This document shows positions 6,940 to 31,627 of a stretch of DNA of 64,000 bases, one piece after another; within the stretch, counting starts at the first letter, position 1; each line of letters begins with the position of its first letter. The notes beneath the pieces are model-generated. The model was given only the letters and a program-made list of their open reading frames with translations. It was not told where the DNA came from and did no database searches. Both the position numbers and the translations under genes were made by a program. This DNA comes from Minisyncoccota bacterium. Lineage in GTDB: Bacteria; Patescibacteriota; JACMRA01. The DNA lies in NCBI GenBank assembly GCA_014376695.1, contig JACMRA010000008.1:24685-88684 (forward strand), in the 5' to 3' direction.

Positions 6940-7088
6940 TAAACTTAATTTCGATTATAATCGCCTGGTTTTGTCTTTTGATATTTCAAAAGTACTCTAA
7001 AAAAATCGTCTTGTCAAAAAACCCAAATTTCTAAATCATTATTCAATAACGGTTATCAAGTCCGCTTGAAATACTCAATCTATTCTAT

Positions 7089-8885
7089 ATGCAATCATTA
7101 ATATCAACTTTTTTAGGGTGGGCTACGCGTGCAAGCCTGCTGATTTCCAAAAATATTCTTTGGGCCTATATAATATGTATAAGCCTCTTTTCTGGACTAA
7201 CTTATTTGAGCAATTATCACCTGCCAAACAGTAGTATATGGGACGAAACTTACCATATTACCAGCGGCGAAAAATACTTGACAGGGACAATGTTGATGGA
7301 AGCTCATCCACCACTTGGAAAGCTCCTAATCGCTCTCGGTGAAAAAATCGTCAACCCAAATGCACCGCTAAAAGATCTCAATATCTTGGGCAAAATCTGC
7401 TTGGCCACCACTCCACTAGTCCAGACAATCGACGGTAAAAAAGTAATTACAACGACACTAAAAGCTCGGCAATCCAACCCAACTAAATTGGTTGACAAAT
7501 CTAGCTTTACGACTACGGATTCTATCGGGATCGACAATAATAATGATGGAATAAAGGACTCGGACTATCCAGAATATTTTAGTTATTGTGGTTTTCGATT
7601 AATTCCTGCCTTGTTTGGCTTTGGGATACCTTTGATTTTCTTCTGGTTGCTGTGGCTAATGACTCGAAACCCTCATTTGTCAGCAATTGGTAGTTCCCTT
7701 GTAATTTTTGATAATGCTTTGCTTGTCCAATCGCGGGCGGCGATGTTGGATTCGATACAGATATTTTTGGTTTTGGGGGCATGTTGTTTTTTTGTAAGTT
7801 TAATTAGCGATTTTTTGGATAGTCAATTGATTCAACCCCAGTGGAAAACGCTCTTGAAGTATCTTGGCCTGGGACTTACAATTGGACTAGCCCTGGTTAC
7901 CAAACACAGCAGTGCTTTTTTGCTTCTGCTACCTATAATAACAATCGGCTGGGAGCTCGTAAATATCGCAACAACCCAAATCCAATCATACTGGATATGG
8001 AAAAATCAAAACCCAACTAAAAAATTCTATGAAAATTGGCTCGATATCGTTGACGACTTAATAATTAATATTATCCCAAAGCTCTCAATAGTTTTGCTTG
8101 CAATTCTATTTGCTTATTGTAGTATTTTTTATATTCACACGGGACTTGGAACGACTATCAACTCAAAAGCCAGTAATAACCAAGGTCTCTACAAGGCCAA
8201 AGACCAGTATCAAGACATAATCAAATCGTCAGAAACTTGGAATCCGGTCAACTTTCCAATAATGTTTGAAGATAATTGGAATTATATGGAGCAATATCAC
8301 AAAGGCGTCCCAAAGTTAGACCCAACCAACAAAAACGAAAATGGTTCGTATCCCTCGAACTGGCCGGTAATGAATAAGACCATAAGTTTCAAATGGGAAA
8401 CGGCTAACTATAGCGAGTATCAGATAATGTATCTAATTGGCAACCCCTTAATCTGGCTCACGGGGCTCGCTGGGATTATATTATCTATCTCGCTGATTAT
8501 TTCAGTTATATTCTTTGGCAATCGAATCAAAAATCTTAGAAGTTTTGTCTTTATCATAATTTTTGTTTTTTTGTGGCTGGTTTATATGGCGACGATGCTT
8601 TATGTTATCGAGATACGGGTTATGTATCTATATCATTATTTGATCGCCCTGGTGTTCAGTCTAGTCCTACCCACTTTGCTAATTGAATATCTCTACGGGC
8701 ACGAACTCCGCAAAGATACCTTTAAGTCTAATTTAATATATTTGTCTTTGGTTAGTTGGATGGTCGCGGTGTTCGTGAGTTACTTAGTATACGCTCCATT
8801 TACTTATTATTTACCGCTGAGTCATGACGGATTCAAAGCTAGGCAACTATTTGGCTTTTGGCAGATGAAATGGCCTAAGGACTAA
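7089..8885 (+). CDS. protein O-mannosyltransferase-like (PMT family) glycosyltransferase
   Basis: multi-TM; IWDETYHITSGEKYLTGTMLMEAHPPLGKLLIALGE motif. Confidence 0.75.
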   Translation: MQSLISTFLGWATRASLLISKNILWAYIICISLFSGLTYLSNYHLPNSSIWDETYHITSGEKYLTGTMLMEAHPPLGKLLIALGEKIVNPNAPLKDLNILGKICLATTPLVQTIDGKKVITTTLKARQSNPTKLVDKSSFTTTDSIGIDNNNDGIKDSDYPEYFSYCGFRLIPALFGFGIPLIFFWLLWLMTRNPHLSAIGSSLVIFDNALLVQSRAAMLDSIQIFLVLGACCFFVSLISDFLDSQLIQPQWKTLLKYLGLGLTIGLALVTKHSSAFLLLLPIITIGWELVNIATTQIQSYWIWKNQNPTKKFYENWLDIVDDLIINIIPKLSIVLLAILFAYCSIFYIHTGLGTTINSKASNNQGLYKAKDQYQDIIKSSETWNPVNFPIMFEDNWNYMEQYHKGVPKLDPTNKNENGSYPSNWPVMNKTISFKWETANYSEYQIMYLIGNPLIWLTGLAGIILSISLIISVIFFGNRIKNLRSFVFIIIFVFLWLVYMATMLYVIEIRVMYLYHYLIALVFSLVLPTLLIEYLYGHELRKDTFKSNLIYLSLVSWMVAVFVSYLVYAPFTYYLPLSHDGFKARQLFGFWQMKWPKD

Positions 8886-27733: not shown

Positions 27734-30700
27734 TTATGACAATATCCGGAGCTTGTCTGCCTGTTTTTTGAGGTCTTCGAATCGGTCAGCCAAATCTTGT
27801 CGCTTCTGATCTATCACTTCTTGCTCAGCTCGCTCTATAAATTGGGCGTTGTTAAGCTGATTGTTAATTGTATCAATTACTTTTTGGATAACCTCTATTT
27901 GTTTTTTGGTTTTGAGGATCTCCGATGGCTTATCTTTGATATAATCAAGTATATTAAGCCCGTATTGATCCAGCCCGATTTCTAGTATCAAATCTCCATT
28001 TTTGGGCGATGATATAATCAGGTCAATTTTGGCTAATAATTTTAGATATGGTCGATATGTATTAAGTAAATTCGAAGTACTTCTGATGCTGATGGCAAGG
28101 TGCGGGTCGATGCCAAACAACCCTTTGAATGAACGAACCTGGTTAATATGCTCAACTACTAACTCAAATTGACTGGCCTCGGTTTTTTTAATTAAGGTAC
28201 TTGCGTTAAGAAGCCAGGTAGTATCAACAGTCTGCCAAGCAATCAAGCCATTCTGCTTGAGAAACTCGACCCATAGTACCTGCGACTCAAATGGAATATA
28301 TGGTGATATTAATATAATAAACTCTCTAAATAGCTGAGCCGCAAAAATTATATCAGCCTTGTCTGTCTTGAGATACTCGAGATACCAACTAGCATAATCA
28401 TCCCAAAGAAACCTATAAATCAGATCTACAGAACTAGCCAAATTATAAGTCGTAAAGTTATTATCAAGTTGCTGGCTAAGATCCTTGTACTTGTTCAATA
28501 TCCATTGGGAGGCAGGAGATATATTTTGGATGCTCTTTTGAGATGAGGGAATTAATTGATTACCAGGAATTGCTTTGGGCGTTTGAACAATCAAGGGTTG
28601 GTCGCCCTGAGTGATTTCGATAATCTTTGGCCCAGCAACATAATTGGGCAAATTTAACTGCTGCGGCTTAACCATGGCTACCCGTTTAAAATCAAAATCT
28701 ACCCTAATTGAAACCATTTTTGGCCTTGAAGCAGTAGTTTGGGACTTGGCAACTGGCTGAATAGGAATATCCCCCATTGCTACCTCAAGGAACCGAGCCA
28801 CATTCCATATTTTGTTACCTAAGTTTCGGTATTTTTCGGTTAATGTATCGGCTAATTTACCCTGAAAGCGAAAGTTCTTGCCGGGAGCGGCTCCAGTTAG
28901 CATTGCCAAACGGGTTGAATCCACCGAAAAATTAGCGATATGGGTTATAGGGTCAAGTCCATTATTGAGAGATTTGGACATCTTTCGGCCTTTTTCGTCG
29001 AGTACCCAAGCGTGGCATAAGTAATCCCTAAATGGGACTTCGCCTGTAAAGTACATCCCTGTCATCACCATCCGAAGTATCCAAGCGTAGAATATCTCCC
29101 AAGCCGAGGTCATAATTGTACTAGGATAATGCCTGAGGAACACCTGCGCCTGATTACTATAGTTCGACTCACCATAATAATTGCCAAGCCTGTTCCCGTT
29201 GTCCAAACCAAGTCGATGATTCTCAAAAGCAAAGTCCACAAAACCAAGGGTCGATAGGGGCCAAAGGGTCGAACTAAACCAAGTATCCAAAATTTTGGTT
29301 TCTTGTACCCAGTTGCCTGGCTCATTTGGCCTGTTAGGTTGGACACGGAACAAATCACTGATATGATACATCTTTGCGTCAATCTCAATTTCTTGATTAA
29401 ACTCACTGTATTGATAAAATCTTTGACTTGGGTTTAGATCTATATTATACCATATTGGCATCTTATGACCCCAGATTAAATCTCGACTGATGCACCAGTT
29501 CTTAATTTTTTCGAAGTATTTGATACCCCGCTCTCGGTACTCACTAGGATAGAAATTCACCTTATTTAGGCCTGAAATAGCTAACTCTTGGAGCGAGGTA
29601 GTTGGCTTAGTTAGTGAATAAATATAATACTCTTCTTCTTTACCGTTGACGCTTACGAAGTTTTTTTGGCTAATTTGTTCAAAGCCAAGTTTTTGGGCTA
29701 GCTGGATACTGGCTGTGTTGTGCGTCTTTACTTCGTAAAGTAGTTCGCTGACACGTAGATTATCAAAAGACCAATTGATTAGCATACCCAAAGATTCCAT
29801 GGCTAATCCTTGATTTTTATATTTGTTCGCAATCCAAATTGTCAACTTATATTGATTGTCTTCTTTGCGAATACCAGTATAACCAACAAAATTACCGCTT
29901 TTTTTGTCTATAATTGCAATAGTAATTCTTGAACCATTTTTGGCCTCGACAATCCTATCCTCTATCCAAATCTTTGCCTCACCCTCAGTGTCGAATTGGG
30001 GTGAAATTACAAGTTCGGCGTCCTTTTCGTTCATATGATGAACTAAATCGAGTGAATGAATTGGTTTGATTGCCTCAAGCCGAATACGCTGATTTTCAAT
30101 TCCAAAAGCCGAGAAATCAATATTTTTGTGGCTGACAGGGCTGTGCAAAAATTGCTTATAATAATCTACAAAAAACTCTTCGCTAATCAATGGTTCTACA
30201 ACAGATTTTGAGCGTTCGCAGATAGTCACATTATGCTTATAATTCCAGTCAATCTTATAATCTGGATAGAAGTCTTGCAGGTATTTGCAACGACCAACGT
30301 ACTCTAATTGTTCGTACTTATCAATATCAAATACGTGATTGACTTCTGTATATTCGGGTTCCGAACTAGCGTAATCATCGTCTGTCTGGCTGGCAACAGA
30401 GGCTTTGTGGATTTGCTTAATGTGATCGTTATCAATCAGGAGTTTAATTACGTTGGTTCGAGCTACCTCCACAGTTTGACCAGCCCATTTATGACAATCT
30501 TCGGTTAATTTACCGCTTCGAGCAATAATTGACTTGGCCGTTAAACCATGTTTTTTTGCAATATTGTAATCGACGATATCGTGGCCTGGAGTAATCTTGA
30601 GACAACCCGACCCGAAGCTTGGATCTACATCTTCGTCAATAATTAACTTGACCCCACGCGTCATCAAACATCGAATTTGAAAATAAATTTTGATTTTGTC

Positions 30701-31627
30701 ACTCTCTATTAATTCGATTATATAATCTGCTGTCAACTCATTAATACGATTATCAAGTAACTTATTTCTCAGGATTTGGGGGTGAATTGCTATGGCCACA
30801 TCACCAAAGATTGTTTCGGGTCTGACCGTTGCCACCGTAATACTGGCAAAAACTTGCTGTAACAAGCCCCTAAGTTCTGTATCTAAGGTTGACTCTTCCA
30901 ATAATTCAACTTTGTCCAAATTGTAGTCAAAAGTAACAAAAGGATCGACTTTTTCTATATGTCCAATATCCTCAGGAACATCAGAAAGTGCAGTCTGCAG
31001 GGCAACCGACCAATTAATAAGATAACTATCTCGATAAATTAAATCATCTTGCCAGTATTTGAGAAAAGCAAAATTGACCATTCTTATAGCTCTTTCATCG
31101 AGAGTAAATAATAGCCGCTCAAAATCTGGAGAATCCCCGATAATTTTGGCCTGCTCGAGTTGACCGCTACGCCATATTTCGGCTTTTTCCATAGCTATCT
31201 CGGTCCAGAGACTAGGATTTTGTTTTTTGAGATAATTGGCTTTTTCGGACTGCTCTAAAGTTGAAATTTCGGGATTCTCGGACAGTATTCGCTCATCAAA
31301 CTCGCCATCGTTAATCATCCGACTAATCACACCTTCTAGTTGAATCCCAGCGTGGTCTACTCCCGGTTGGTATAAGGTAGGTATTTTTTTTTGGCGGGCA
31401 ATACGAGCCAAAGTGTCCATCAAAAAATGCTCAAAAGCGTGTCCAGCGTGTAACATTCCCGTAAGGTTAGGCGGCGGAACTACGATCGTGTAAGTATTAT
31501 TAATATTTTTGTAATCAATTGCTTGGATTTTTAGCTGGTTGGCTAAGTTTCCTATTTTTTGACGGCTCCACAATTCTTTTATGTTTTCTTCGTATAATTT
31601 TGGATTATAAGTAGGGGCAATCGACAT
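27734..31627 (-). CDS. valS: valyl-tRNA synthetase with embedded GNAT acetyltransferase domain
   Basis: PPPNLTGMLHAGHAF, SKSVVEPLISEEFFVDYYK, WCISRDLIWGHKMPIWY, GRKMSKSLNN; GNAT domain between the second and third motifs. Confidence 0.93.
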   Translation of the reverse strand: MSIAPTYNPKLYEENIKELWSRQKIGNLANQLKIQAIDYKNINNTYTIVVPPPNLTGMLHAGHAFEHFLMDTLARIARQKKIPTLYQPGVDHAGIQLEGVISRMINDGEFDERILSENPEISTLEQSEKANYLKKQNPSLWTEIAMEKAEIWRSGQLEQAKIIGDSPDFERLLFTLDERAIRMVNFAFLKYWQDDLIYRDSYLINWSVALQTALSDVPEDIGHIEKVDPFVTFDYNLDKVELLEESTLDTELRGLLQQVFASITVATVRPETIFGDVAIAIHPQILRNKLLDNRINELTADYIIELIESDKIKIYFQIRCLMTRGVKLIIDEDVDPSFGSGCLKITPGHDIVDYNIAKKHGLTAKSIIARSGKLTEDCHKWAGQTVEVARTNVIKLLIDNDHIKQIHKASVASQTDDDYASSEPEYTEVNHVFDIDKYEQLEYVGRCKYLQDFYPDYKIDWNYKHNVTICERSKSVVEPLISEEFFVDYYKQFLHSPVSHKNIDFSAFGIENQRIRLEAIKPIHSLDLVHHMNEKDAELVISPQFDTEGEAKIWIEDRIVEAKNGSRITIAIIDKKSGNFVGYTGIRKEDNQYKLTIWIANKYKNQGLAMESLGMLINWSFDNLRVSELLYEVKTHNTASIQLAQKLGFEQISQKNFVSVNGKEEEYYIYSLTKPTTSLQELAISGLNKVNFYPSEYRERGIKYFEKIKNWCISRDLIWGHKMPIWYNIDLNPSQRFYQYSEFNQEIEIDAKMYHISDLFRVQPNRPNEPGNWVQETKILDTWFSSTLWPLSTLGFVDFAFENHRLGLDNGNRLGNYYGESNYSNQAQVFLRHYPSTIMTSAWEIFYAWILRMVMTGMYFTGEVPFRDYLCHAWVLDEKGRKMSKSLNNGLDPITHIANFSVDSTRLAMLTGAAPGKNFRFQGKLADTLTEKYRNLGNKIWNVARFLEVAMGDIPIQPVAKSQTTASRPKMVSIRVDFDFKRVAMVKPQQLNLPNYVAGPKIIEITQGDQPLIVQTPKAIPGNQLIPSSQKSIQNISPASQWILNKYKDLSQQLDNNFTTYNLASSVDLIYRFLWDDYASWYLEYLKTDKADIIFAAQLFREFIILISPYIPFESQVLWVEFLKQNGLIAWQTVDTTWLLNASTLIKKTEASQFELVVEHINQVRSFKGLFGIDPHLAISIRSTSNLLNTYRPYLKLLAKIDLIISSPKNGDLILEIGLDQYGLNILDYIKDKPSEILKTKKQIEVIQKVIDTINNQLNNAQFIERAEQEVIDQKRQDLADRFEDLKKQADKLRILS

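Follow-up and report, generated by a model that had tools for sequence, protein, structure and literature searches.

A GNAT acetyltransferase domain nested in the valyl-tRNA synthetase of a Patescibacteria genome, and the enzymes found in the loops of related synthetases

The valyl-tRNA synthetase (ValRS) encoded in the window, by which is meant the whole stretch of 64,000 nucleotides that was analysed, contains a GNAT acetyltransferase domain within one continuous polypeptide, the motifs of both parts are intact, and nested enzymes are recurrently swapped at the equivalent loops of the leucyl- (LeuRS), isoleucyl- (IleRS) and valyl-tRNA synthetases of the same phylum, the Patescibacteria. The reading preferred here, to which a probability of roughly 0.55 is given, is that the GNAT domain is a semi-independent enzyme tethered to ValRS and, to judge from its motifs, catalytically competent. 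Both halves of the protein are probably active, and the substrate of the GNAT domain is probably not specific to ValRS.

The valS gene and its nested GNAT domain

The source genome (G000, the window genome) is a Patescibacteria assembly of 955 kb in 16 contigs, and a genome-wide search for a second valS found none, the window copy being the sole ValRS gene. Its product can be assigned to ValRS by the class I signature motifs (HAGH and KMSKS, intact as the earlier note had described them), the retained editing-domain motifs (the TVRPET and FGSGCLKITPGHD segments), the anticodon-binding domain, the C-terminal coiled coil and a structural match to Thermus ValRS (Table 1), and the Pfam tRNA-synt_1 profile matches it with an E-value of 1e-73. 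The score against the NCBIfam ValRS model TIGR00422 falls below the cut-off (515 bits vs 612.1), as expected because the sequence is both divergent and interrupted, and ValRS models are still the best-matching families. Two smaller additions were seen in the alignment with relatives, namely an extension at a second insertion loop (site C), which is the position of a hydrolase and a NUDIX domain in the ValRS of the sister genus (G002), and an extra linker between the catalytic and anticodon-binding domains, located at the spot where relatives such as G004 split valS.

Table 1. Features of the ValRS gene in the window (coordinates are those of the window; aa, residues of the predicted protein).
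Feature	Coordinates	Strand	Basis
valS, valyl-tRNA synthetase with nested GNAT	27734..31627	-	single uninterrupted ORF, 1297 aa
HAGH (class I HIGH motif), aa 60-63	31439..31450	-	sequence
Whole insert, about aa 492-676	29600..30154	-	alignment with G003/G004/G002 ValRS
GNAT domain, aa 514-650	29678..30088	-	Pfam Acetyltransf_3
Putative acetyl-CoA binding loop KNQGLA (GNAT motif A), aa 604-609	29801..29818	-	sequence, RimL/RimJ alignment
Ser640, opposite E. coli RimL Ser141 (NTAS / NPQS)	29708..29710	-	BLASTP and MAFFT
WCISR segment downstream of insert, aa 711-715	29483..29497	-	sequence
Extension of ~30 aa at second insertion loop (site C)	29141..29236	-	alignment with relatives' ValRS
KMSKS motif, aa 882-886	28970..28984	-	sequence
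Extra linker of ~80 aa, catalytic to anticodon domain	28520..28786	-	alignment with relatives' ValRS
Anticodon-binding domain, aa 1041-1175	28103..28507	-	Pfam Anticodon_1, E 1.3e-14
C-terminal tRNA-binding coiled coil, aa 1236-1288	27764..27922	-	Pfam Val_tRNA-synt_C, E 4.3e-6

The insert comes after ICERSKSVVEPLISEEFFVDYY and ahead of the stretch running to WCISRDLIWGHKMPIWY. The earlier note had proposed a GNAT domain of the RimJ/RimL type at 29610-30110, embedded in the catalytic core of ValRS. Its coordinates were right to within tens of bases, and the domain does lie inside ValRS, but the site is not the active site; by alignment, the insertion point corresponds to about residues 355-365 of Thermus ValRS (1gax), in a loop directly past the CP1 editing domain. 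The identity of the domain was borne out by the Pfam Acetyltransf_3 profile, which matches over its entire length (positions 1-138 of 138) with an E-value of 3.1e-18 and 67.2 bits against a cut-off of 25.4, and a full-length profile match at 3e-18 is far beyond what chance would be predicted to give. The KNQGLA segment agrees with the R/Q-x-x-G-x-G/A pattern of the acetyl-CoA binding loop except that its first position is Lys, departing from the usual R/Q. The N-x-x-S motif is retained, and its serine stands opposite RimL Ser141, a residue that has been reported, like Ser553 of MccE, to act as general acid (PMC4363471).

The proposed type was likewise upheld, in the sense of a RimJ/RimL-like domain. 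The nested GNAT shares with RimJ/RimL and MccE the fold family, the position of the catalytic serine and the N-x-x-S motif; it differs in that its identity to the E. coli proteins RimL and RimJ is just 16-18% and that it misses the cut-off of the RimJ model PRK10809 (20 bits vs 190), and because of this identity and score it is classified, by sequence, as RimJ/RimL-like and not as an orthologue. MccE sandwiches the nucleobase between Trp453 and Phe466, and in the alignment with RimL and RimJ the stretch equivalent to RimL shows no clear Trp. Weak free-standing GNAT relatives occur in the window genome (L267) and in G004 (L264), and a scan of viral contigs for relatives of the GNAT domain or of ValRS found none. 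An intein or a stop-separated gene was considered as the nature of the insert and rejected, the reading frame containing no stop and the domain being a GNAT.

An AlphaFold2 model of the window ValRS was built with 35 homologues. Confidence is high in the ValRS core on either side of the insert (pLDDT about 90) and low across most of the GNAT domain (pLDDT under 60), because the alignment held no homologues for the GNAT part. The best PDB match of the modelled ValRS is Thermus ValRS 1gax, and as modelled the core fold accommodates the insert.

Occupants of the ValRS loops in relatives and across the phylum

Six genomes make up the sample of the same class, all of them compared as assemblies. 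The nearest uninterrupted homologue is the ValRS of G003, which has 985 aa and wholly lacks the GNAT domain. In the sister genus (G002), valS consists of two genes on different contigs, each contig-internal, encoding an N-terminal half of 387 aa and a C-terminal half of 1187 aa, the latter with a HAD domain at the loop that holds the GNAT in the window ValRS and with an alpha/beta hydrolase and a NUDIX domain in a later loop. In a ValRS tree (FastTree), G000 and G003 were grouped with a support of 92 and G002 fell outside, which implies that the GNAT and HAD domains were gained separately, were exchanged, or that the loop occupant was lost in G003.

Split and interrupted forms of valS are also seen in this class. 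The break between the two pieces in G002 (L047:3875-5038 and L039:2362-5925) falls after the editing domain and before the second catalytic half, and each piece has clean termini. In G004 (L040:1826-3964 and 6980-7768), the anticodon-binding and coiled-coil part of ValRS is a separate gene that lies ~3 kb downstream, past intervening genes, and a similar separate gene for the C-terminal part is found in G001 (L042:9103-9921). The valS of G005 (L044:2977-5913) shows TAG, in frame, at a conserved position that is a Glu codon in relatives, just ahead of the GNAT loop, and this may be either a sequencing error or a true nonsense codon. Within the class, the contig scan brought up only G005 (JAOZKL010000017) and G004 (CALITC010000005).

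Among 380 Patescibacteria genomes, no GNAT-bearing ValRS was found besides that of the window, so that 1/380 carries one. Other enzymes occupy the ValRS loops elsewhere in the phylum. A profile of the KMSKS region located ValRS in 263 of 287 genomes and about 60 longer ORFs were then read, ORF length serving in most genomes as the proxy for inserts, such that short-form ValRS with small inserts may escape. A histidine phosphatase (HisPhos) domain is present at loop B (after IPVWY) in the ValRS of G008, G047, G049 (two copies), G190 and G242 and at loop C in G321; ASCH-like domains are present at loop B in G125 (a weak Pfam match) and G274 (recognised by eye), with an ASCH domain at loop C in G209; and a NUDIX domain is present at loop B in G158. 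In the FastTree phylogeny of ValRS, one sister pair joins a HisPhos host to a NUDIX host, both with the domain at loop B, and another consists of two ASCH hosts that differ in the loop used, B in one case and C in the other. Inserts of at least 100 aa were not seen in some 65 ValRS from other phyla.

The catalytic motifs of the nested domains are mostly intact, with the strict NUDIX box present in most nested NUDIX domains. The strict NUDIX and RHG motifs are conserved in most nested domains across long distances. The HisPhos domain of G047, which is without the second histidine motif, is a degenerate case, and the narrow pattern by which second histidines of HisPhos domains were counted gives too low a number.

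Nesting in other aminoacyl-tRNA synthetases

Nested enzymes also occur in LeuRS and IleRS. Roughly one quarter of the LeuRS ORFs listed (about 147 genomes) exceed 930 aa, and 15 of the 16 long LeuRS that were scanned contain nested NUDIX, RBBP9-like serine hydrolase, HAD, Ham1 or nucleotidyltransferase domains. About one fifth of the IleRS ORFs listed exceed 1100 aa, and all seven long IleRS scanned hold HisPhos, one of them (G049) a GNAT as well. The MetRS and AlaRS controls keep to the normal length but for one long AlaRS, as no MetRS ORF listed (107 genomes) is longer than 614 aa and the complete AlaRS ORFs listed (150 genomes) have about 570-770 aa with a single exception of 1013 aa. These lengths rule out a general insertion habit of all synthetases, and the nesting habit is concentrated in the Leu, Ile and Val enzymes.

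Several individual cases were recorded alongside this survey. The LeuRS of the window genome (L261, contig C10, about 61.7-64.5 kb) has a nested alpha/beta hydrolase with a GHSLG motif after WGCPIPVYY, while the LeuRS of G008 (L283:1177-6561) reaches 1795 aa with nested HAD, Ham1, NUDIX and nucleotidyltransferase domains. The G049 IleRS (L299:2638-6990, 1451 aa) has its GNAT in the catalytic domain, at the loop C position, and its histidine phosphatase before the anticodon domain. The IleRS of G003, G004, G005 and G001 (L255, L256, L257 and L259) have in common an insert of ~120 aa after WGNPIPIWQ, for which no Pfam match was obtained in G003, the sole one scanned, and they also carry a coiled-coil insert in CP1 that is absent from the window genome. 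AlaRS is apparently split in five of the six class genomes, the catalytic part being a separate ORF for about 300-350 aa (L311:4505-5461 on contig C12 of the window genome, with matches in G001, G003, G004 and G005).

Interpretation and alternatives

Most of the domains known to be inserted in synthetases serve for editing, anchoring or tRNA binding. The CP1 editing domain is itself enzymatic and lies within the catalytic domain of LeuRS, IleRS and ValRS, and it differs from the GNAT domain in being ancient and functionally coupled, the GNAT being lineage-specific and additional to CP1. The LeuRS editing family has been listed as insertion-only (PMC13114784). A second precedent is the CAAD domain, which is inserted in cyanobacterial ValRS, IleRS, LeuRS and others, most often in ValRS, and whose removal from Anabaena ValRS changed the kinetics little (PMC4893482). 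The CAAD case is similar in that an extra domain lies within a class I synthetase, at alternative positions according to lineage, with aminoacylation kept; it differs in that CAAD is a membrane anchor at ValRS positions of about 750 and 820 (PMC4893482), whereas the insert in the window ValRS is an enzyme domain and lies where the editing domain gives way to the second catalytic half. The NCBIfam family NF040702 (ileS_w_GNAT, isoleucine--tRNA ligase with N-acetyltransferase domain) also combines a GNAT with a class Ia synthetase in one protein, but it is an IleRS family, and the window ValRS, compared by the family model alone, falls far below its cut-off (64.5 bits vs 1999). A literature search found no description of enzyme domains nested in Patescibacteria synthetases.

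On the preferred reading of a tethered enzyme, a full-length ValRS would have gained a small autonomous GNAT where a permissive loop links CP1, the editing domain, to the second Rossmann-fold half. With its catalytic, editing and anticodon-binding parts retained, the synthetase would most likely charge tRNA-Val normally, and the GNAT domain would most likely fold by itself, bind acetyl-CoA and transfer acetyl to an amine; an abundant housekeeping protein would serve as its tether, and it would itself have no part in valine charging. That the nested domains are functional enzymes, rather than junk or artefact, is argued because their repertoire is shared and exchangeable and their active-site motifs are kept.

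A possible, though distinctly less favoured, alternative is that the GNAT domain is coupled to ValRS as a quality-control or immunity module like RimL or MccE, acetylating aminoacyl-adenylates that were misactivated or expelled, mischarged tRNA or antibiotics of the aminoacyl-nucleotide type; a role in proofreading or detoxification had been suggested in the earlier note. Acetylation of many aminoacyl adenylates has been reported for both RimL and MccE (PMC3817062), and the RimJ/RimL-like character of the domain with its Ser640, the concentration of inserts in the CP1-editing Leu, Ile and Val synthetases and not in MetRS or AlaRS, the nested GNAT of the G049 IleRS and the existence of NF040702 are all consistent with such coupling. 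Against it stand the occurrence in ValRS of one genome in 380, the HAD domain in the same loop of the sister genus and the empty loop of G003, and the lack of a confidently identified counterpart of the nucleobase-stacking Trp of MccE. A role specific to ValRS is further disfavoured by the many unrelated small enzymes that the phylum has in loops of its LeuRS, IleRS and ValRS, and ValRS-specific proofreading is less likely than a tethered enzyme, because of the single occurrence and the differing loop occupants in relatives.

It is unlikely that the insertion was neutral, the loop tolerating any compact domain and the GNAT decaying as a passenger without any function under selection. The diversity of domains at the same loops, the split genes in relatives and degenerate cases such as that of G047 would agree with neutrality, but the GNAT is full length with intact motifs, and strict NUDIX and RHG motifs are conserved in most nested domains elsewhere.

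An assembly or annotation artefact, in which a chimeric contig or a frameshift fused two genes, is very improbable: the genome is a 16-contig assembly of one strain and one relative (G005) has a stop inside valS, but the frame is open throughout, ValRS resumes beyond the insert, another domain occupies the same loop in a relative and nesting of enzymes is seen again in many other, independent genomes. Nothing hints at a chimeric contig, since the insert resembles the remaining gene in GC content (37% vs 40%) and its codon usage is inside the range of other valS stretches. The earlier note had held that an uninterrupted valS in related genomes, combined with misassembly here, would speak against the insertion; the first exists in G003, but nothing indicates the second.

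The tethered-enzyme reading must also account for the choice of host, which argues that the host matters, as inserts are found in the Leu, Ile and Val enzymes and MetRS and AlaRS are nearly free of them, a distribution not to be expected of a passenger that is purely independent. It may be suggested, tentatively, that the LeuRS, IleRS and ValRS of Patescibacteria are carriers of exchangeable house-cleaning enzymes that act on side products of the synthetases, for instance dinucleotide polyphosphates or aminoacyl-adenylates that have been expelled. The set would comprise NUDIX, histidine phosphatase, Ham1, HAD, serine hydrolase and ASCH domains, and the GNAT in the window would be its acetylating member.

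Unrelated metabolic enzymes are thus repeatedly and exchangeably nested in three editing synthetases of one phylum. If by-products of the synthetases are indeed what the nested enzymes act on, this would be a new form of translational quality control in bacteria with tiny genomes, and if they are not, it would be a striking nesting of genes within essential genes.
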